DNA from: Candidatus Bathyarchaeota archaeon | GTDB taxonomy: Archaea > Thermoproteota > Bathyarchaeia > 40CM-2-53-6 | Direction: 5' to 3' | Assembly (NCBI GenBank): GCA_005888695.1 | Contig: VBBH01000023.1 | Coordinates: 1-30,148 of the forward strand | Length of the DNA stretch: 30,148 nucleotides | Part shown: piece after piece, positions 14,089 to 24,226 of the stretch | Numbering within the stretch: position 1 is the stretch's first letter | Layout: the number at the start of each line of letters is the position of its first letter | The notes under the pieces: generated by a model | The model's database searches: none | Told to the model about the DNA's origin: nothing | Seen by the model: the letters and a program-made list of their open reading frames with translations, nothing else | Position numbers and translations under genes: made by a program

Positions 14089-14263
14089 GCCGCCGTTTCC
14101 TCAAGTAATGAGGTGACGAAAGCTCAGTGGTTAGAGCAGCGGACCTGGCAGTAATGCTGGGGCTGAAGCTGTTAAAGTGCGAACGCCACTGTCGCAACCC
14201 GTTGGTCAGAGCGCTCTTTCAATTCGAAAGGCGCGATTAGAGGTTCGAACCCTCTCGGCGGCG
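14089..14263 (+). tRNA. multi-intron tRNA, probably tRNA-Asn (GTT); identity unresolved
   Basis: The 3' half is unambiguous: AGAGG-TTCGAAC-CCTCT (14239-14255), acceptor CGGCGGC (14256-14262), discriminator G, encoded CCA (14264-14266). The matching acceptor GCCGCCG occurs twice (14071-14077 and 14089-14095). The D arm GCTC-AGTGGTTA-GAGC is at 14122-14137. An insert of about 24 nt with hairpin CCTCA/TGAGG separates acceptor and D arm; its removal gives GCCGCCGTAGCTCAG. After the stem strand GCGGA (14139-14143) nearly 95 nt precede the T arm. They hold CTGTTAA (an Asn anticodon loop, 14169-14175) and a second loop-like CTTTCAA. Acceptor plus discriminator G match archaeal tRNA-Asn; tRNA-Glu (TTC) is the alternative. 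At least two introns must exist. Confidence 0.6.
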
Positions 14264-16105: not shown

Positions 16106-17386
16106 TTAGATTATCTCTCTCGACAGAGCTTCCCTGAACTTGACCCTGCAGTCTTGGCACTGGAACAGTCCGATTAGGACGTTCTTCTTTGACTTGCCGC
16201 CCTTTAGCTCCCATACCTTGGTTGGCTGCGGTACGTCTGCACCGCACTTTGGACACACCACTTTGTAGAATGGTGTTGGTTGAGATGGGCTTAGCTGCGC
16301 CAAATCTGGCGCGGGCTGAGCACCTGCACTGATATCGCCTGGTCCCGCTCCGCCGAGCAGGGAGGGTTGGAGCTGTGTCTCGCTGGATACTAAGGCTGAG
16401 GATGCTTCAACGATCGGAATGTCGTCAACAACCTTGACAGTCAAAGCGTCAATATCCGCTGCGGCCGCTTCGATTGGAGCCCCTGTGGTATTTTCGGCCT
16501 CTCCGAGCGAGGCTGTTGTTAGATTGACATTTGCAATAGCTGATGGTGGCTCAGTTTCCGTTCCGACTTCCGGCTGCGGTACTATCGATGAAAGCGTGTC
16601 GTCTGTCGATGGATTGAGGGTGGTCTCCACATTGGTGGCTGTTGACTCAATTGTTTGTTCGGGCGTGTCTACGACCGATGCGGCAACTTCGGGCGTTGAA
16701 GGTTGTAGAGGAGTTGGGTGTGCTTCGACAGTTTCGGTTGTCGTGTTCACTTGAACGCCTTCTGACTGCTCATGTATCGATGAGGAGGGCGCTGGTTGCC
16801 AGTTCGGGGTTAGGTCGGGAAGTGGTGTTGACGTTTGGACTGGCGACGTCAGTGGTTGGACTTGGGTCGTTACCTGGATTGGAGATATCGATGGTTTTTC
16901 GGCGAAAAAGTTGGGTTTGCTACGGTCCACTAGGGTTGGACCGTAGGCCCGGGATGTTAGAGTGGACGGTGGAGAAGGCGTTGCTGGAGTAGATACTGGG
17001 AATTGTGGCGCTGCCCTGATCTCGGCCGGTCCGAGGGGTCTGGCATCGATCAGAGATAGCGTTGTAATCATGTTCTTGATGTCTTCGATTGTGTTTAGGT
17101 TCCGCTGTAGTAATATTTTGAACTCGTTCTTCTGAACTCTGTACTCCTGCTCGTTGACTTCGCCGCTTACATACTTCGTTTCAAGGGTTAGAAGCCGGGG
17201 AGGAGTGCTTGTCATCGAGTCCTTGACGTCTTTGAGGTGCTCGTTCAGGCTGTACCCCAAGACATTGATTCTGTCCTGGAGTTCCTGGGCGGCGTGTCCA
17301 TAGTCCTCGTATAGTGTCTGCATCTTCTGCTTGTAGCTATTGATCTCGCCGATCAGTTTCTCTAGTGTTAGGTCGTTTAGTCCCAT
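16106..17386 (-). CDS. CdvA-like coiled coil, S/T/P-rich linker and zinc ribbon
   Basis: The 426-residue protein has three parts. Residues 1-115 are a coiled coil. Its second half (LLTLETKYVSGEVNEQEYR...NLNTIEDIKNMITTL) resembles the end of the CdvA coiled coil encoded at 18485 (YLASNKMLHASGEFDDAGY...ERKDIEAITTYL). Residues about 116-365 are a low-complexity Ser/Thr/Pro/Val/Ala linker, probably disordered. Residues 372-426 are a zinc ribbon, C378-x2-C381-x28-C410-x2-C413. There is no PRC barrel, signal peptide or membrane segment. It is divergent from the Cdv cluster over a 401-nt gap. My reading is a Cdv-associated adaptor that joins CdvA-type filaments and reaches a partner through the ribbon; this is inference. 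I know of no named family with this architecture. Confidence 0.75.
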   Translation of the reverse strand: MGLNDLTLEKLIGEINSYKQKMQTLYEDYGHAAQELQDRINVLGYSLNEHLKDVKDSMTSTPPRLLTLETKYVSGEVNEQEYRVQKNEFKILLQRNLNTIEDIKNMITTLSLIDARPLGPAEIRAAPQFPVSTPATPSPPSTLTSRAYGPTLVDRSKPNFFAEKPSISPIQVTTQVQPLTSPVQTSTPLPDLTPNWQPAPSSSIHEQSEGVQVNTTTETVEAHPTPLQPSTPEVAASVVDTPEQTIESTATNVETTLNPSTDDTLSSIVPQPEVGTETEPPSAIANVNLTTASLGEAENTTGAPIEAAAADIDALTVKVVDDIPIVEASSALVSSETQLQPSLLGGAGPGDISAGAQPAPDLAQLSPSQPTPFYKVVCPKCGADVPQPTKVWELKGGKSKKNVLIGLFQCQDCRVKFREALSREII

Positions 17387-17787
17387 GTTCGAATTTTCAC
17401 CTGTAAGACCGCCAATAGTACCGTCGAAATGGTAAAAGCGTTAGACACCAGTTTCAAGGGCAAAGCACTCCGCCAACCCAACAAAATCAGCGATCGAACT
17501 ACCTGTCACTGTCAAAGACAATGAAAATATCTGATCTTTTTTAGTCGGAAATGCTAGACTTTGAAGGCCAAAAACTAATCGGGTCGATCCCGGGCAGGTC
17601 GTCTATATAAACCAAAAACCTCTTGTTGACAACACAACAAGCGGACTATTCTATTGTAGAACCCCCGCTAACTGTTGCTGTACCTAACATTTCCATAGTG
17701 GCGATTGATTAGTATCGATCCCGACGTGTCAAGAACTCACTTGGAAAATGTGTCAGGTCAAGTCGCAACCAGGAGTCAGCAAGTCTC
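17387..17787. promoter_or_regulatory. divergent control region between the zinc-ribbon gene and the Cdv cluster
   Basis: This 401-nt gap has no convincing gene. For the plus strand a strong TATA box, CTATATAAA (17603-17611), predicts a start near 17632 and an unusually long leader of about 155 nt. For the minus strand CGCTTTTACC (17431-17440) predicts a leader of about 20 nt. A T6 tract lies near 17536-17541. A perfect inverted repeat overlaps the predicted plus-strand start and is listed separately. Confidence 0.5.
17622..17641. promoter_or_regulatory. inverted repeat CTTGTTG-N6-CAACAAG, candidate operator
   Basis: Two perfect 7-nt arms (17622-17628 and 17635-17641) flank ACAACA, 11 nt after the TATA box and over the predicted start site. 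A 20-nt dyad there could be bound by a dimeric regulator that blocks initiation; the Lrp-like protein encoded in the same cluster (21289) is the obvious candidate. This is positional inference. Confidence 0.4.
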
Positions 17788-18432
17788 ATGAAAAATTGGG
17801 AAAGAGACCGTAAGGAACCACTGATCACACGGCTCAGCGCCGGGGTGCACCGCCAGGAACCATTGAAGGAACGAATCAGCCAAGTCGTCTACAAACTCAG
17901 AGTCCAACAACACCGACTCGAAGGCGCCAACCAGAAGACTCAGGCACACGACAAGAATCTTTTCGAGAAGCTAGTCCAGTCGCAAATGTCAAAGGACAAC
18001 GCCCGCAGCGTCATGTACGCCAACGAGATCGCGGAAATACGGAAGATGGCGAAGATAACCGTTCGCAGCGAACTCGCACTCGAACAAGTCACCCTACGCC
18101 TAGAAACCATCCAGGAATTCGGAGACGTCGCCGCCCTGATGGGTCCAGTTGCAGGAGTGGTCCATCAAATCAAGAGCCAGATCTCAGGTGTGATGCCAGA
18201 GGTCAGCTATGAACTTGGTGAAATATCCGAATCGCTCAACGGCATGGTCATGGAAGTAGGTGAAGCGACAGGGCAAGGTTTCGATATGGAAGCATCTGGT
18301 GCAGAGGCCACGAAGATCATGGGAGAGGCGAATACCATCGCAGAACAGAGAATGCGGGAGAAGTTCCCAGACCTACCAATCCCGACCACCGCCACTCTAG
18401 AACGGCCGATTGAGCCGACCTTTCCAAAGTGA
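17788..18432 (+). CDS. ESCRT-III/CdvB-like protein without winged helix (first copy)
   Basis: The 214-residue protein has the ESCRT-III layout. A basic first helix (about 25-60: PLKERISQVVYKLRVQQHRLE) and a second (60-105: MYANEIAEIRKMAKITVRSELALEQVTLRLETI) form the hairpin, followed by FGDVAALMGPVAGVV and amphipathic helices to about 165. It ends with AEQRMREKFPDLPIP (184-199), a conserved helix plus Pro motif that also ends the other two CdvB proteins here and is a candidate MIM for the CdvC MIT domain. The CdvA-binding winged helix is absent. It would polymerise on membranes at the division site. It opens the operon and is followed by CdvA after 52 nt. Confidence 0.88.
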   Translation: MKNWERDRKEPLITRLSAGVHRQEPLKERISQVVYKLRVQQHRLEGANQKTQAHDKNLFEKLVQSQMSKDNARSVMYANEIAEIRKMAKITVRSELALEQVTLRLETIQEFGDVAALMGPVAGVVHQIKSQISGVMPEVSYELGEISESLNGMVMEVGEATGQGFDMEASGAEATKIMGEANTIAEQRMREKFPDLPIPTTATLERPIEPTFPK

Positions 18433-18484
18433 GGGAGAAACAAAACTCCCCACCAACCTTTTTGGTATATGAGAGAGAAAAAAC

Positions 18485-19219
18485 ATGATTACAAGTCTCG
18501 AACAAGTTCGAAGGTTCCTCGGAAAGCCGCTCCAGGACCCATACGGTAGAACCCACGGCAAACTCATCGGCATAACCGCCAATCTCAGAGACGAAGCCAC
18601 CGCCGTAGGGGTCGAAACTGCCAACGGTGAATTCGCACAGTACCCAGGCGAACGACTATGGATCAACGGCGAAAACTTGACACTCGTCCCGGCATGGAAA
18701 CTGGAATCTGAAGACTTCCGAAAAGAGTTCGACATAGTGACACGCCGACTCAAAGCCTTGGATGAACTGTTCAGTGTTGGCGACATTCAACAGGACATTT
18801 ACGAAGATCTGAGAAAACAACACGAGGAAGGCATCAACGAACTCAAAGAGAAACGCCGCACGTTACTCGACACTCTAGCGCGTAGAACGGGATTGTTGAA
18901 CGGTCAACTTCGAGAGCTCCAAACATACCTGGCAAGCAACAAGATGCTCCATGCGAGCGGTGAATTTGACGACGCTGGTTACAGAAGTGCCAGCAGCGAG
19001 ATCGACACGGGACTCGTGCGAACAGTTGCAGAGCGCAAAGACATTGAAGCAATAACAACATACCTGGTTCGCCTTGACCCAACGACGCCCATAGCAGGTA
19101 GCCCACAACAAGAAATAGCGACTCAACCGCCTCAGCCTGCCACCCCATCAACTCAGAGCTCTACTGTCCAAGCAACTTCTCGCGAGCCAGCCCTAGTCCT
19201 ACACGTCAAGGAGAAATAA
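18485..19219 (+). CDS. cdvA: CdvA, PRC-barrel division protein
   Basis: Residues 1-70 form a PRC barrel (FLGKPLQDPYGRTHGKLIGI...GVETANGEFAQYP...LTLVPAWK), and 75-195 a long coiled coil. Residues 198-232 are a Gln/Thr/Pro-rich linker, and 233-244 end EPALVLHVKEK. In Sulfolobus CdvA, the barrel and coiled coil make filaments at mid-cell, and a short C-terminal peptide recruits CdvB through its winged helix. The tail here has the right place and character for that ESCRT-III-binding peptide. Only 6 nt separate it from the winged-helix CdvB, so the two are made together and are the likely canonical pair. Confidence 0.88.
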   Translation: MITSLEQVRRFLGKPLQDPYGRTHGKLIGITANLRDEATAVGVETANGEFAQYPGERLWINGENLTLVPAWKLESEDFRKEFDIVTRRLKALDELFSVGDIQQDIYEDLRKQHEEGINELKEKRRTLLDTLARRTGLLNGQLRELQTYLASNKMLHASGEFDDAGYRSASSEIDTGLVRTVAERKDIEAITTYLVRLDPTTPIAGSPQQEIATQPPQPATPSTQSSTVQATSREPALVLHVKEK

Positions 19220-19225
19220 ACTACA

Positions 19226-20071
19226 ATGTCACTGTTCAAAAGGCTTGAAGATCGAGTTCACACCATCCCTCTAAAGGAACGGATAGAACAGGCCCTCTTC
19301 AGGCTCAACACTCAGAAGGCCAAACTAGAACAGACATCAATGAGGCTACAGCAGAGAGACAAAGAAATGTTCCAAAGAACCGTTGGAGCCGAACTCTCCA
19401 AGGACAGCTCCCACGCCAGATTGTACGCCAACGAGTGCGCCGAGATTCGCAAGATGGCGCACATAGTACTAAGCAGCGAACTTGCCCTCGAAAGGGTGAT
19501 TCTCAGGCTTCAGACCATCGAAGAGTTCGGAGACATAATGACCCAGATTGCTCCAGTGATCGGAATAGTCCGGGAAACAAGGGGAAGGATCGCAGGCGTG
19601 ATCCCCGAAGTTGCTAACGAGCTTGGAGAGGTCAACGACATGCTCAGCGACATGAGCCTCGAAAGTGGCGGAGTAGAAGGAGATCAAAACTACGAGATAC
19701 AATCCTCAGGAGGAGAAGCCAAAAAGGTCCTTGAAGAATCCGGACTGATAGCAGAGCAACAAATGAAAGAACGGTTCCCAGAACTCCCCGTCCCAGGCGC
19801 TCGCGAATCTCAACAACAACCAAAGACAGCAGTCGAGCCGAAGGTCCCGGTCGCAGTGGCCGTCGCCGTCTCCGAGGCAGGAGTCGAGGCGGAAATCCCG
19901 AGATCATCGACGCTACAACGGCCTTTCGAGGACAGACTCTTGGAGTACATCAAATCCCGCAATGGCGAGATCAGTATCAGCAACTGCTCTACAGACCTCT
20001 CCGTTGGAGCTGATGAGATCAAGAGGGGACTTGAAAGACTCCGTGGTGACGGGAAGATAGTCATCGAGTAG
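19226..20071 (+). CDS. cdvB: CdvB, ESCRT-III with C-terminal winged helix
   Basis: This 281-residue protein has the ESCRT-III core (about 15-145) with the same YANE(C)AEIRKMA and RLQTIEEFGDI motifs as its paralogues. The tail motif AEQQMKERFPELPVP is at 176-190 (candidate MIM). A flexible Ala/Val/Pro linker to about 225 follows, then RPFEDRLLEYIKSRNGEISISNCSTDLSVGADEIKRGLERLRGDGKIVIE (232-281). That last domain is a small winged helix like the one by which Sulfolobus CdvB binds CdvA. It is the only one of the three CdvB proteins here to have it. It follows cdvA by 6 nt and precedes cdvC by 75 nt. Confidence 0.92.
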   Translation: MSLFKRLEDRVHTIPLKERIEQALFRLNTQKAKLEQTSMRLQQRDKEMFQRTVGAELSKDSSHARLYANECAEIRKMAHIVLSSELALERVILRLQTIEEFGDIMTQIAPVIGIVRETRGRIAGVIPEVANELGEVNDMLSDMSLESGGVEGDQNYEIQSSGGEAKKVLEESGLIAEQQMKERFPELPVPGARESQQQPKTAVEPKVPVAVAVAVSEAGVEAEIPRSSTLQRPFEDRLLEYIKSRNGEISISNCSTDLSVGADEIKRGLERLRGDGKIVIE

Positions 20072-20146
20072 ACCAGCGCCACTCAAACCTCCCTATAATT
20101 CAGCACGTTCCGACTTCCGATAATCAAAGTGGAGAAACATTGACCG

Positions 20147-21289
20147 GTGTCAGCATCAGAAGAGCTTGAAGGCTTAGCAGTAAGATTCGCTCAAGAGGCG
20201 ATCGAACTCGAAAAGAAAGGATCAAGACGACTTGCCGCGCAAAAGTATCAGAGAGCCCTAGAAGTCCTCCTGAAGCTCTGCGCTCTGTACCCTACGGCTG
20301 CCCAGAACAGGGTCTACATGGAACACGCCGAAGCCTATCGTAGAAGAATCCAAGAACTCCAGACCCAAGCAGCGGAACCAGACCATCCTCTTGAGGGACG
20401 AGACCCGTCCAAACCCACAAGCTTCGACCAGTGGGTTCTCACAGAGAAACCAGACATCAGCTGGGACGACATAGCGGGACTTGAACGGCCAAAACGTGCT
20501 ATAGAAGAATCAATAATCTTCCCAGTCCGTCGCCCAGACCTCTTCCCACTAGGCTGGCCACGGGGAATCTTGTTCTTCGGACCGCCAGGTTGCGGTAAGA
20601 CCCTGTTGGCAGCCGCCATCGCGAGCGAGGTCAAGGGCGTCTTCTTCTGCGCGGACGCTGCATCATTGATGTCGAAGTGGCTGGGCGAGTCGGAGAGGAA
20701 TGTTAGTCAGCTCTTCGTCAAGGCAAGAGAGGTCTCTGACAATGGTCAGCCGGCGATCGTCTTCTTAGACGAGGTGGACTCGCTAATGGGTGTCCGGGGA
20801 GAAGAGGTTGGTGGGGAGGTCCGGGTTAGGAACCAATTTCTCAAGGAGATGGACGGCATACTGGACAAGAAGAAAACCTATCATGTTTACTTGATCGGCG
20901 CGACGAACAAGCCCTGGGTCCTTGACGAGCCCTTCATCAGACGATTCCAGAAACGGATCTATGTACCACTGCCCGATGTCAAAGCCAGGATGGACATGTT
21001 CACCATATACGCCGAGAACCTCAGATTCAATGACAACGTCGACCTCCCAGAACTGGCCCGCATGACCGAAGGCTACTCCGGAGGCGACATCCGCGACCTG
21101 TTCCAGTCAACCCATCTAAAAGTCGTGAGAAGCTTCTTCCAACACGGCAAAGTAGCGGACCCGAATGCTCTACCCGACCCGATCACGATGGAAGACTTCC
21201 AAACAATTCTCACGGAGAGAAGACCAAGTGTTTCGCAGGGTATCCTGAAACGGTACCATGACTGGGACGAGTCGTTCAAGGCAAGCTAA
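20147..21289 (+). CDS. cdvC: CdvC, Vps4-type AAA ATPase with MIT domain
   Basis: The 380-residue protein starts at GTG 20147. Residues 1-75 are an MIT three-helix bundle (ELEGLAVRFAQEAIELEKKG...AQKYQRALEVLLKL). The AAA domain shows DIAGLE (108-113), Walker A GPPGCGKT (145-152), pore loop SKWLGESE (176-183), Walker B IVFLDEVD (204-211), sensor-1 GATNKP (251-256) and the Arg-finger region IRRFQKRI (264-271). A Vps4-like C-terminal helix region ends the chain. It remodels and disassembles ESCRT-III polymers, binding their MIMs with the MIT domain. It is the only Vps4-type ATPase in the cluster and must serve three CdvB proteins. Its TAATG overlap couples it to the Lrp-like gene. Confidence 0.95.
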   Translation: MSASEELEGLAVRFAQEAIELEKKGSRRLAAQKYQRALEVLLKLCALYPTAAQNRVYMEHAEAYRRRIQELQTQAAEPDHPLEGRDPSKPTSFDQWVLTEKPDISWDDIAGLERPKRAIEESIIFPVRRPDLFPLGWPRGILFFGPPGCGKTLLAAAIASEVKGVFFCADAASLMSKWLGESERNVSQLFVKAREVSDNGQPAIVFLDEVDSLMGVRGEEVGGEVRVRNQFLKEMDGILDKKKTYHVYLIGATNKPWVLDEPFIRRFQKRIYVPLPDVKARMDMFTIYAENLRFNDNVDLPELARMTEGYSGGDIRDLFQSTHLKVVRSFFQHGKVADPNALPDPITMEDFQTILTERRPSVSQGILKRYHDWDESFKAS

Positions 21290-21798
21290 TGCCAAACAAG
21301 AGGACTGGTGACTTGCACCTCGATGGCACGGATCTTCGAATCTTGGCCGAACTGGTTGAAAACTCGAAATCAAGCTACGTCGAGATCGGAAGAAGACTCG
21401 GACTACATCCCAACGTCGTAGCCTACAGGGTGAATAGGATGGAAGAATCCGGGATAATACGCGAATACACTGCCCACGTTGACTTCTCCAAGCTAGGACT
21501 CTCAGAACAAGTCTTCGTCGCCGCAAACTTCCCCAACAGCAGCCCAAGAGAGGACATGCTCAAGCAAATCTCCGACATTCCCGGAACGATGAGCATAGTC
21601 AGCAGCCTCGGCAGCCCAGAAGGACTGGTCTTCATAGTCGCCAAGAACAAAGAAGATGTGAACAGCGTATTATCCAAGCTAAGATCGCTAAACCTAGACA
21701 TCGAATTCACATCCTCAGTAATCAAGACCTACGACGAAGGCCGTCTTGGAACCTTCCTCAGAACTATGGCAACAGCCATTCCGGCAGAGGGTTCGTAA
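21289..21798 (+). CDS. Lrp/AsnC-family regulator linked to the Cdv cluster
   Basis: The 169-residue protein has an N-terminal winged HTH (LDGTDLRILAELVENSKSSYVEIGRRLGLHPNVVAYRVNRMEESGIIREYTAHVD, about 12-68) followed by a RAM-like alpha/beta domain (EQVFVAANFPNS...PGTMSIVSSLGSPEGLVFIVAKNKEDVNSVL). This is an Lrp/AsnC transcription factor. Its ATG overlaps the cdvC stop (TAATG), so it is made with the division proteins and could be an autoregulator of the cluster; the dyad at 17622-17641 is a candidate site. The reading frame downstream of its TAA stays open in the same phase and encodes the FtsX-like membrane protein. Confidence 0.88.
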   Translation: MPNKRTGDLHLDGTDLRILAELVENSKSSYVEIGRRLGLHPNVVAYRVNRMEESGIIREYTAHVDFSKLGLSEQVFVAANFPNSSPREDMLKQISDIPGTMSIVSSLGSPEGLVFIVAKNKEDVNSVLSKLRSLNLDIEFTSSVIKTYDEGRLGTFLRTMATAIPAEGS

Positions 21799-21936
21799 GA
21801 ATCGGAAACACAAACCCCCTTCCTACTAGCATTACGCTCGATAGTCCCCAGGAAACCGACAGACCTCATCGCACTCACGATCCTGTTAACCGCCGGATTC
21901 CAGGGACAGTCGCTGACTCTCATCCTAATCGCGTCT

Positions 21937-22233
21937 ATGACACTCCTCCTAGCATCATACGCCCAGACGATTCTTGCAGAACCAGAACAGCTCGCCCTAT
22001 ACTCATACGGAGTAACGAAGAAACAGCTAGTCCTAGTACACTACACCAAGGGACTCTTGATAGCGACAATTGGAACCCTTCCTTTCTACCTGCCAGCACT
22101 GATGGCGAGTTACCGCTCACCCTCAATCTGGGCCATTCTACTGCCCACTCTCTTAATCTCAGGAATTTTCTACCTACTTCCTTTTGCTTTCCGGCTTCGA
22201 TCAACCCAATTTGTTGGTCTACTCAAGAACTAG
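21937..22233 (+). CDS. FtsX-like small membrane protein (ABC permease-like), start uncertain
   Basis: From ATG 21937 the protein has 98 residues with at least three hydrophobic segments. The stretch LAEPEQLALYSYGVTKKQLVLVHYTKGLLIATIGTLPFYLPAL resembles the core of FtsX/MacB-type permeases (acidic motif, regular 'YG' turn, then a membrane helix). The frame is open back to the Lrp TAA at 21796. That 138-nt stretch reads FLLALRSIVPRKPTDLIALTILLTAGFQ and another hydrophobic run, with strongly coding-like third positions, yet contains no ATG, GTG or TTG. The natural protein probably starts earlier, by a rare start codon or translational coupling, at up to 144 residues. Its partner is the ATPase that starts 25 nt downstream. 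Confidence 0.65.
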   Translation: MTLLLASYAQTILAEPEQLALYSYGVTKKQLVLVHYTKGLLIATIGTLPFYLPALMASYRSPSIWAILLPTLLISGIFYLLPFAFRLRSTQFVGLLKN

Positions 22234-22257
22234 GACTAGGGTTCTAGAGGGCTCGCT

Positions 22258-22959
22258 TTGTCTAATTTGCTGCTCTACGTCAAAGCTCTCCTCAAGGACT
22301 ACAAACGCGAAAACGGATTCCTGCGACTGTACAATGGATTGACTTTTGGACTCGACAAGGGAGACTTCTTGGCCGTCACTGGTGCTAGTGGTTGGGGTAA
22401 GTCGACGCTGGTCAACATCATCTTGGGCGTCGAAAAACCCAGCCGAGGAACCATACTGCATGATGGCAAAGACGTGACTCGATTACCATTCATGAAACGC
22501 TTTGGAAAATCACGGGTGGCCGCTGTATTTCAGAGATCTACCTCGTTGCCGCAACTCACCGTCGGTCAAAACCTGAACCTGGCCCTCTCATTAGTTGGCA
22601 TCAAGAAGACCGAGAGGAAGGAGAGGATCGACGAAGCGCTCTCATTTTTCGGGCTTGAGAATTCCTCCAGTTCATTCCCTGAAAACTTGAGTGCCGGCCA
22701 AAAACGACGTATCGATCTTGCAAGAGCACTAGCAGTAAGGTCCGACTTTCTGGTTCTCGATGAACCCGTGAGCGACCTAGACACTTCCACGACGAACCTC
22801 CTCCTTCCCTTGCTAAAGGGAATGAACCGTGACCATGGAACAACTGTTCTGATGACAACTGCAATACCAAGAGTGGCATCCATTGCAAAACACCAGGTCC
22901 ACCTGACAACTCCAATGGTATCGGTGTCTAATGTCAATGCTCACAAGGCGGAGGCCTAG
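22258..22959 (+). CDS. FtsE/MacB-like ABC ATPase lacking the switch histidine
   Basis: The 233-residue ATPase (TTG 22258) has Walker A GASGWGKST (42-50), Q-loop FQ (91-92), signature LSAGQKR (144-150), Walker B FLVLDEP (164-170) with catalytic Glu, and D-loop SDLD (172-175). Where family members have THD after the next strand (TVLMVTHDP), this one reads TVLMTTAIP, with Ala at residue 202 in place of the switch His. Length and domain order fit the FtsE/LolD/MacB group, in which the ATPase drives a membrane partner that acts mechanically instead of passing solute. The adjacent FtsX-like gene fits. It lies inside the Cdv operon; the CdvB paralogue follows after 6 nt. Confidence 0.87.
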   Translation: MSNLLLYVKALLKDYKRENGFLRLYNGLTFGLDKGDFLAVTGASGWGKSTLVNIILGVEKPSRGTILHDGKDVTRLPFMKRFGKSRVAAVFQRSTSLPQLTVGQNLNLALSLVGIKKTERKERIDEALSFFGLENSSSSFPENLSAGQKRRIDLARALAVRSDFLVLDEPVSDLDTSTTNLLLPLLKGMNRDHGTTVLMTTAIPRVASIAKHQVHLTTPMVSVSNVNAHKAEA

Positions 22960-22965
22960 AAAGCA

Positions 22966-23574
22966 GTGTTCAAGGAAAACCCATCATTCACGGATCGCTT
23001 GAAGGAAGCTCTCAAACCAACCCCGATGAAGCGAAGGATCGAGTTCACAATCCAGAAACTACGACTACAATCCTCCCGTCTGGATAAGACGCTCAGCCAA
23101 TTGGAAACCCGGGATCATACACTCCACGAAAAGTGCGTCAAAGCCCTCGAGACCCGAGACATTCCAACCGCCACCCTCTACGCGAATGAATGCGTCCAAT
23201 TGAGGAAGCTGGCAAGAACCGCTCTAAGCAGTCAGATATGCTTGGAGCAAGCACTTCTTAGACTTGAGACGATCGAGCATTTTGGCGACATGGTCCAAGG
23301 AATGAGCCAGGTCAAAGGAATAATCGGCCTCGTGCGAACAGAACTCGAAGGACGACTGCCCGAATTATCCACTGGGCTCGGCGATGTTGAGGATTCTCTC
23401 GCGGGACTCACGTTAGAGGTGGGTGAGGCCGTGGACATTGAAGGGGCTAGTGTTGTCGCGAGCGACGAGTCGGCCCGGATATTGAAGGAGGCTGACATGA
23501 TGGCTGAGCAGAAAATGAAAGAGAGATTTCCCGAGATACCCCAAATGGCCCGTGACGCAGGTCGAGTTCGATAG
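22966..23574 (+). CDS. ESCRT-III/CdvB-like protein without winged helix (third copy)
   Basis: The 202-residue protein (GTG 22966) has the ESCRT-III core: PMKRRIEFTIQKLRLQSSRLDKTLSQLETRD (helix 1), TLYANECVQLRKLARTALSSQICLEQALLRLETIEHFGDM (helix 2), then amphipathic helices to about 155. It ends AEQKMKERFPEIPQMARDAGRVR, the same candidate MIM as the other copies (FPEIP, 188-192) but with a short basic tail and no winged helix. It starts 6 nt after the ABC ATPase, so the transporter and this protein are tightly coupled. With the CdvA-like gene behind it, it repeats the B-then-A order of 17788-19219. Confidence 0.87.
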   Translation: MFKENPSFTDRLKEALKPTPMKRRIEFTIQKLRLQSSRLDKTLSQLETRDHTLHEKCVKALETRDIPTATLYANECVQLRKLARTALSSQICLEQALLRLETIEHFGDMVQGMSQVKGIIGLVRTELEGRLPELSTGLGDVEDSLAGLTLEVGEAVDIEGASVVASDESARILKEADMMAEQKMKERFPEIPQMARDAGRVR

Positions 23575-23608
23575 AGATCTGATTCCAAGGAGGCGTTAGA
23601 GAAAACAA

Positions 23609-24226
23609 ATGCTTTCGCCAGAACTCGAGGCCAAAGCCCTACTCGGCAAGAGTATCAGCGATGTATACGGCCGTCCTTTGGGACGAATAATTGGTGTCAA
23701 TCGGAACCAGTTTGGAGAGATGGAAGGATTGGAAGTAGAATCTCCAGGCGGTAATGTCATCGACATACCGTCTAAGAGTATCATGCTTACACCGAAGATG
23801 GTCACGGCCACACCCGAGTGGAAGGTAGATGCTCACGAGCTCTCAGGCGAAATTGCTACGGTAAAGAGGCGAATCGTTGCGCTTGAAGGTCTGCGGGACA
23901 AGGGAGATGTGGATCGTGAAATATACGAGGAGCTTTTGGAAGCTCAAAGGTCGGGTTACCTGTCAAAGGTCAAACAAACCGAGGCCCTCGTTGGAGCACT
24001 CCGTGCTAAGCTTGAACGGACAAACAATCAGCTAACCAGTCTGACAAAGCATCTAGTAAACGCTAAACTGGATTATCAGAGCGGTGAGATAGATGAAGCA
24101 TCCATGAAGCTGGCGGTCGGCTCCATCGAGCCCAGTCTCAAGCCATTGATAGCGGAAAAGAACGACCTTTCAAGCACGCTGAAGACACTTGAAGACCTAC
24201 TTCCGGCCCACGTAAGAGCGTCCTAG
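23609..24226 (+). CDS. CdvA-like PRC-barrel protein (second copy), lacking the C-terminal tail
   Basis: The 205-residue protein has a PRC barrel at 1-72 (LLGKSISDVYGRPLGRIIGVNRNQFG...GLEVESPGGNVIDIPSKSIML) and a coiled coil at 75-200 (ELSGEIATVKRRIVALEGLRDKGDVDREIYEELLEAQ...HLVNAKLDYQSGEIDEASMKLAVGSIEPSLKPLIAEKNDLSSTLKTLEDLL). It aligns along its length with CdvA at 18485 but stops right after the coiled coil, so the linker and ESCRT-III-binding peptide are missing. It may co-polymerise with CdvA or define a separate filament. It is the last gene of the cluster; the next gene has its own leader of nearly 90 nt. Confidence 0.85.
   Translation: MLSPELEAKALLGKSISDVYGRPLGRIIGVNRNQFGEMEGLEVESPGGNVIDIPSKSIMLTPKMVTATPEWKVDAHELSGEIATVKRRIVALEGLRDKGDVDREIYEELLEAQRSGYLSKVKQTEALVGALRAKLERTNNQLTSLTKHLVNAKLDYQSGEIDEASMKLAVGSIEPSLKPLIAEKNDLSSTLKTLEDLLPAHVRAS

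Follow-up and report, generated by a model that had tools for sequence, protein, structure and literature searches.

The DNA analysed here, a 30,148-nucleotide stretch of contig VBBH01000023.1 (the window), comes from a soil lineage of Bathyarchaeota. Positions 17788-24226 of its + strand hold nine genes in the order CdvB-CdvA-CdvB-CdvC-Lrp-(FtsX-like)-(ABC ATPase)-CdvB-CdvA (ABC, ATP-binding cassette). This locus is read as a Cdv cell-division operon to which three genes have been added, for a minimal FtsX-type protein, an FtsE/LolD-type ATPase and a specialised second CdvA (CdvA2); these would together form an old, CdvA-bound, ATP-operated membrane anchor comparable to a minimal FtsEX. We put the probability of this reading at about 0.48. 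The mechanism is proposed from what the sequences provide: the gene identities and their order, the ATPase clade, the joint presence of the unit, the link to CdvA and the absence of a CdvA2 tail in two families (f1 and f3). The narrower statement that five families conserve a minimal, FtsEX-like ABC module alongside CdvA is well supported by sequence comparison, as to both identity and linkage, and it is in this membrane pair that the novelty lies.

The genome nearest to the window is G001, whose contig C402 is 98.4% identical over 8837 bases. Families are coded f1-f27: f1 includes G001, f2-f6 are the other families of its order, and the codes from f7 onwards belong to the class outside that order. 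The closest loci in the named collection belong to the Candidatus Bathyarchaeota metagenome-assembled genomes (MAGs) BA_9 and BA_25, whose soil origin is read from depth labels in their names. The preliminary description of the locus had proposed to look for the whole gene order in related genomes, where it is indeed conserved. The Cdv region was read in 38 genomes of the order (G001-G038), and 19 of them (13 from f1, five from f3, one from f6) carry all nine genes uninterrupted on one strand, a recurrence that puts the locus far beyond chance. The complete-order list thus holds 20 loci including the window, the first gene of G018 being cut by the contig start. Consistent fragments, broken by contig ends or runs of N, occur in 10 more (G006, G009, G011, G016, G019, G020, G021, G034, G036, G038); G031 runs from cdvB1 through lrp to a contig end, and no Cdv locus was seen in G032. 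Seven genomes have cdvB-cdvA-cdvB-cdvC-(lrp)-cdvB without permease, ATPase or second cdvA: G004 (f1), G022 and G027 (f2), G024 and G029 (f4), G025 and G030 (f5). Outside the order, the B-A-B-C arrangement is found in f11, f13, f16, f18, f19 and three named MAGs. Loci L074 and L075, named copies of the G015 and G018 loci, are dropped from the order, motif, tail and co-occurrence counts and from the CdvA and CdvB trees; L048 is left out of the CdvA tree and the co-occurrence and tail counts, and L033 out of the CdvB tree and the co-occurrence and tail-pattern counts.

The tie between the membrane pair and CdvA carries the argument. A permease profile, searched against 256 genomes of the class, yields 34 short open reading frames down to an E value of 2.7e-13, confined to f1, f3, f6, f8 and f9, and each of the 34 lies in a Cdv locus whose contig also encodes a CdvA. 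Sixteen of these loci contributed to the profile and 18 did not; those of G220 and G221 were discovered via the permease, not via CdvA. The next short frames in the ranking (G043, G223) are not at Cdv loci. In f9, the order CdvA-permease-ATPase is present in six of eight genomes (G041, G046, G056, G060, G220, G221), and in the two that were read (G041, G060) CdvB-CdvB-CdvC is located apart from it. The CdvA of G220 is split across two overlapping frames (L168:8365-9106), by a frameshift or a sequencing error. Family f8, represented by G040 alone, displays CdvA-CdvB-permease-ATPase. Downstream of cdvC, 24 of 43 loci have both the ATPase and the second CdvA, the other 19 have neither, and no locus has one alone; among the 19, L038 and L063 are truncated at contig ends and ten lie outside the order. 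A tree of 43 ATPases, with f1 thinned as in the CdvA and CdvB trees, gathers 19 Cdv-linked sequences from the five families in one clade (support 100/99), apart from 24 others taken from among the matches listed from 12 genomes. The ATPases of G022, G025, G027 and G030 that were placed in the tree all fall outside this clade. Its support drops to 85/80 when the ATPases of two non-Cdv short-permease pairs are added and the set of other ATPases is made smaller, the nearest outsider being L216.

These data bear on the idea that the ABC pair and the Lrp regulator are passengers, neighbours by inheritance that are co-regulated at most and serve an unrelated task. Synteny alone can preserve neighbours within one family, and the unit is absent from seven genomes of the order and two of f9. 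However, in each of three distinct arrangements (f9, f8 and the order) a CdvA lies at most three genes away from the pair, absence downstream of cdvC affects the whole unit, second CdvA included, and the Cdv-linked ATPases are of one clade; a passenger status is therefore improbable. The preliminary description had tied the ABC system to the Cdv genes, and the linkage in the order, f8 and f9 upholds it.

Short permeases also occur elsewhere. In 398 genomes sampled from the phylum, of which some belong to the class, the non-class matches listed at E 1e-11 are long permeases, four shorter frames excepted: 160 amino acids in G277, 199 in G469, 261 in G465 and 305 in G318. In G469, the 14 kb that were read include an ABC gene and no Cdv gene; the G277 and G465 loci are cut by contig ends. 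Within the class, the frames of G175, G245 and G062 are short pieces, with no Cdv gene on the stretch read. In another family of the class, L216:7044-8418 encodes a short FtsX-like permease and an ABC ATPase beside genes that look by eye like pilin/TadC-type secretion genes; minimal FtsX-ABC pairs may therefore also serve other machines.

The permease (21799-22233, +) is assigned to the FtsX/MacB type from the FtsX Pfam matches of its relatives, its AlphaFold model and its fold matches. The FtsX Pfam family matches nine of 17 relatives at E ≤0.5 (best 1.2e-11) and is precomputed in four of 15 database relatives. The model predicts the four-helix FtsX permease core with its coupling helix and no extracytoplasmic domain, the loop between the first two transmembrane helices (TM1 and TM2) being two residues long. 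Ranks 1-33 of fold search VIA are all ABC permeases, 30 of the MacB/LolCDE/FtsEX group and three NosY (ranks 12, 24, 30); among the matches listed, the closest solved folds include HrtB, LolC/E, MacB and FtsX. The ATPase (22258-22959, +; PF00005, 107.2 bits) is of the FtsE/LolD/MacB type, and it scores under the curated cut-offs of all models listed, including that of FtsE (TIGR02673, 132.7 versus 264.85 bits). Permease fold and matching ATPase together place the pair in the MacB/LolCDE/FtsEX superfamily (type VII ABC). The ATPase of the window retains the Walker A, Q-loop, signature and Walker B motifs, and its H-loop His is replaced by Ala. Over 35 Cdv-linked copies (36 aligned, less L085, whose ABC genes are not Cdv-linked), 34 have the Walker A Lys, the exception being a gapped row from the split frame of L043, and all 35 have the Walker B Glu, the residues expected of an FtsE ATPase. 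Only the six f9 copies have His at the H-loop position; the 19 f1 copies have Ala there, the nine from f3 and f6 have Asn, and the single f8 copy has Arg.

Such a pair could also be a lipid or small-molecule exporter or flippase of the LolCDE/MacB/HrtBA kind, needed at the division site, for example for lipid rebalancing; it would transport rather than anchor, and its tie to CdvA would be functional. The presence of HrtB, LolC/E and MacB besides FtsX among the closest folds fits this view, as do the scores of the ATPase against many exporter models, the short FtsX-ABC pairs outside Cdv loci and the H-loop His retained in f9. The missing extracytoplasmic domain (the modelled TM1-TM2 loop has just two residues) and the loss of the His in 29 of 35 copies argue against it, and we consider an exporter unlikely. 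A slow ATP switch is likelier than a pump because the His is absent from four of the five families.

Two candidate features of the pair were rejected. The frame 21799-22233 contains no ATG, GTG or TTG before 21937, which makes its start codon uncertain. The 138 bases upstream of the permease ATG are identical to those of L048, which had suggested constraint; the low divergence extends from ~21750 to the end of the L048 contig, so that the identity reflects recombination or assembly. Between 21750 and ~22450, divergence from L048 (G015:C85) falls from several percent to near zero, through recent recombination or assembly mixing; G015:C85 is an additional Cdv locus of the G015 assembly and perhaps a contamination. 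An apparent ABC-CdvB fusion in L065, with the ATPase and CdvB3 as a single frame, is accounted for by a run of N.

The two CdvAs differ at their C-terminus. The E3B strand that terminates CdvA is described as completing the broken winged helix of CdvB (PMC5840170). CdvA1 (18485-19219, +) is canonical (PF18822, 61.5 bits for a cut-off of 30; NF041007, 83.3 bits), and its last 11 residues (19184-19216, +) form an E3B-like strand according to the tail comparison. The following gene, cdvB2 (19226-20071, +), encodes an ESCRT-III domain and a C-terminal broken-winged-helix domain (NF041005, 182.6 bits; NF041008 CdvB over residues 8-281), and its product matches the CdvB2 structure 9s97 (E 1.1e-43). 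The broken-winged-helix region (19877-20068, +), the expected docking site of the E3B strand, was identified with a profile of 18 sequences against PDB 2XVC (E 8.7e-5). A winged-helix CdvB and an E3B-tailed CdvA are thus encoded together, whereas CdvA2 (23609-24226, +; PF18822, 46.1 bits) has no such tail. One tail pattern fits 44 of 53 CdvA1-type tails and none of 28 CdvA2 tails, one of which (L177) is cut; the pattern missed the L044 CdvA1 and the L058 CdvA2 (f6), both tailed when judged by eye, as well as several Thermoproteota CdvAs. The CdvA2 AlphaFold model (pLDDT 92) exhibits a PRC-type barrel, and Foldseek retrieves the S. islandicus CdvA filament 9s9g (E 1.9e-13, TM-score 0.84), with PRC domains next; Pfam PF18822 detects only the coiled coil of CdvAs. 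As the filament fold is kept and the E3B-like tail is absent, CdvA2 in f1 and f3 looks like a filament former that gave up CdvB docking.

The B-A order is seen at both ends of the locus, as described at the outset, and it had been likened to the duplication of a CdvB-CdvA module around cdvB-cdvC; such a duplication would have yielded a second division or vesicle machine. The trees of the CdvA and CdvB copies proposed as a check have been built. In the CdvB tree (84 rows), CdvB3 forms one clade of 17 rows with a Shimodaira-Hasegawa-like approximate likelihood ratio test (SH-aLRT) value of 99, and it includes the seven genomes that have neither a second CdvA nor the ABC pair. CdvB2 falls in one clade with the CdvBs of the class that precede cdvC (23 rows, 99). 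Label L069_B2, inside the B3 clade, denotes the B3 from a cut contig, whose B2 carries the label L069_B1. The CdvA tree (69 rows, cut contigs L043, L052, L053 and L177 excluded) unites 18 second CdvAs from f1, f3 and f6 in a single clade (99/98); in the best topology it branches outside the clade formed by the order's CdvA1 sequences (25 rows, 87/89). A topology constrained to join the order's CdvA1 and CdvA2 is not rejected by the approximately unbiased (AU) test (p 0.115), and one that joins CdvA2 to the f8/f9 CdvAs is borderline rejected (p 0.042). The presence pattern and the best trees thus do not support a duplicated pair: CdvB3 occurs without CdvA2, B-A-B-C is found in other families too, and the B3/B1 and A2/A1 trees point, without proof, to different split nodes. 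It is conceivable that the pair was duplicated long ago and that CdvA2 was subsequently lost, because CdvB3 groups with the CdvB1 type (SH-aLRT 92) and the joint CdvA1-CdvA2 clade is not rejected; as an account of the locus, the module duplication is very unlikely. The second CdvA is an old paralogue, and its presence tracks the ABC pair, not CdvB3.

In the proposed anchor mechanism, CdvA1 would act as the template filament, its E3B tail recruiting CdvB2 by way of the broken winged helix, CdvB1 and CdvB3 would build the constricting ESCRT-III polymers, and CdvC would remove them. The ABC dimer and two FtsX-like subunits would form a transmembrane anchor for the CdvA filament, made of CdvA2 where present and of the adjoining CdvA in f8 and f9. 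ATP binding would shut the ATPase dimer and alter the membrane part, so that the CdvA template may be held or timed at the membrane, much like the bacterial ring by FtsEX. An FtsX-type extracellular arm is impossible for this pair, since it has no outside domain. Lrp probably tunes expression. A few observations weigh against the anchor reading. By eye, f6 reverses the tail pattern, its CdvA2 being tailed and its CdvA1 without a clear tail; two f9 genomes, G051 and G222, give no short permease with the profile; and CdvB1 is unresolved as a clade, B1, B3 and other first CdvBs falling in the group of 40 supported at 92. More tentatively, the minimal FtsEX-like complex might be an old ATP-operated transmembrane part of the ESCRT-III divisome held by CdvA, with CdvA duplicated in one order, one copy keeping CdvB recruitment and the other becoming a dedicated ABC partner. 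Bathyarchaeia are reported to encode CdvABC plus canonical and non-canonical FtsZ (PMC9723716). No FtsZ-family match (E 0.001) was found in G022, G025, G027, G029 and G030, which are 97-100% complete and all have the Cdv locus, and an FtsZ-like gene under the curated cut-off is present in 20 of 21 f1 genomes (e.g. G009:C57:8942).

The remaining genes complete the set announced in the preliminary description, of which all members were identified, all nine on the + strand: three ESCRT-III proteins, two CdvAs, a Vps4-type ATPase, an Lrp-like regulator and a two-gene ABC system. The first, cdvB1 (17788-18432, +), is an ESCRT-III gene of the CdvB1/B2 type without winged helix (NF041005, 223.8 bits), and cdvB3 (22966-23574, +) also lacks the winged helix (NF041005, 155.3 bits). 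CdvC (20147-21289, +) is a Vps4-type AAA ATPase with an MIT domain (NF041006, 503 bits; PF00004, PF04212, PF09336), so that CdvA, CdvB and CdvC are encoded together. Every NCBIfam Cdv score given here is under its curated cut-off (350 bits for CdvB1/B2 and CdvA, 370 for CdvB, 650 for CdvC), as are the CdvC scores of all 61 genomes searched; PF18822 is above its own. The Lrp/AsnC-type regulator (21289-21798, +; PF13412, 50.6 bits) also has a counterpart downstream of cdvC in G041 (f9). Gaps of -1 to 75 bases separate the genes, and a Shine-Dalgarno-like string lies within 20 bases upstream of the start or frame opening in seven of nine; this spacing and the conserved order suggest that the nine genes are co-transcribed. 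A TATA-like GGTATATGA (18460-18484) stands ~20 bases upstream of cdvA1, which has no Shine-Dalgarno-like string, and a leaderless internal promoter is possible there. A nucleotidyltransferase-type gene follows cdvA2 after 87 bases.

The start at 16106 first given to the locus has to be moved, as it falls inside a divergent gene (16106-17386, -) separated from the operon by 401 bases (17387-17787), the predicted promoter region. This gene encodes a CdvA-like coiled coil (PF18822, 30.3 bits for a cut-off of 30), a long Pro/Thr/Ser-rich linker and a C-terminal zinc ribbon. The ribbon is homologous to a small ribbon protein encoded directly upstream of the f9 CdvA (hhalign probability 96, E 4e-9, from few, similar sequences); the C-terminal stretch of these f9 ribbon proteins looks amphipathic. 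Loci of f1 show the divergent gene, and those of f3 and f6 that were read do not. Genomes of f1 encode more short CdvA-type coiled-coil proteins (~135-187 amino acids) distant from the Cdv locus, e.g. G002:C37:107856 and G015:C66:2111. Elsewhere in the window, ARAGORN finds no tRNA with default settings; a tRNA-Leu (CAA) with a 36-base intron (2069-2195, -) is detected only with introns allowed, and 14121-14255 (+) resembles a tRNA that is degenerate or has several introns (Rfam tRNA 17.5 bits, under the gathering score of 29).

The Cdv components described in the literature consulted are soluble or peripheral. A review (PMC7617429) counts among the open questions what becomes of CdvA and how division is coupled to the remodelling of the S-layer. 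A membrane-spanning ABC pair kept with CdvA is a concrete candidate for this coupling, and related genomes with and without the unit offer a clean comparison. No description of a CdvA-linked FtsX-type module was found in the literature searched, which covered sources other than subscription journals, preprints and supplements. The nearest is one sentence of a 2024 paper on transmembrane-plus-ABC genes in Asgard ESCRT operons, whose accessible text mentions no CdvA and no family or fold of the pair; within up to 10 kb on each side of three Thorarchaeota CdvC-type loci (L097-L099), no match to the ABC model was found. The window shares with the Sulfolobales CdvABC system CdvA, the broken-winged-helix CdvB, CdvB1/B2-type paralogues, CdvC and the E3B-like tail, here on CdvA1. 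In Sulfolobales the extra cdvB paralogues are described as scattered over the chromosome (PMC5840170), whereas a single operon of the window encodes, besides Lrp and the ABC pair, three CdvBs and two CdvAs. The permease fold and ATPase type resemble those of LolCDE, MacB, HrtBA and YtrEF, the class named type VII ABC systems. Those systems have outside domains or known substrates, whereas the window pair has no outside domain and its genes are CdvA-linked. As in bacterial FtsEX, an FtsE-type ATPase and an FtsX-fold permease are encoded with the division machine. Unlike FtsEX, the pair has no extracytoplasmic domain for a wall hydrolase or activator, its H-loop His is mostly lost, and its partner, judging from gene linkage, would be CdvA/ESCRT-III instead of the FtsZ/FtsA ring. 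It is classed as FtsEX-like, not as FtsEX, because only two residues separate TM1 and TM2 in the model, and it would connect the bacterial FtsEX and ESCRT worlds of cell division.

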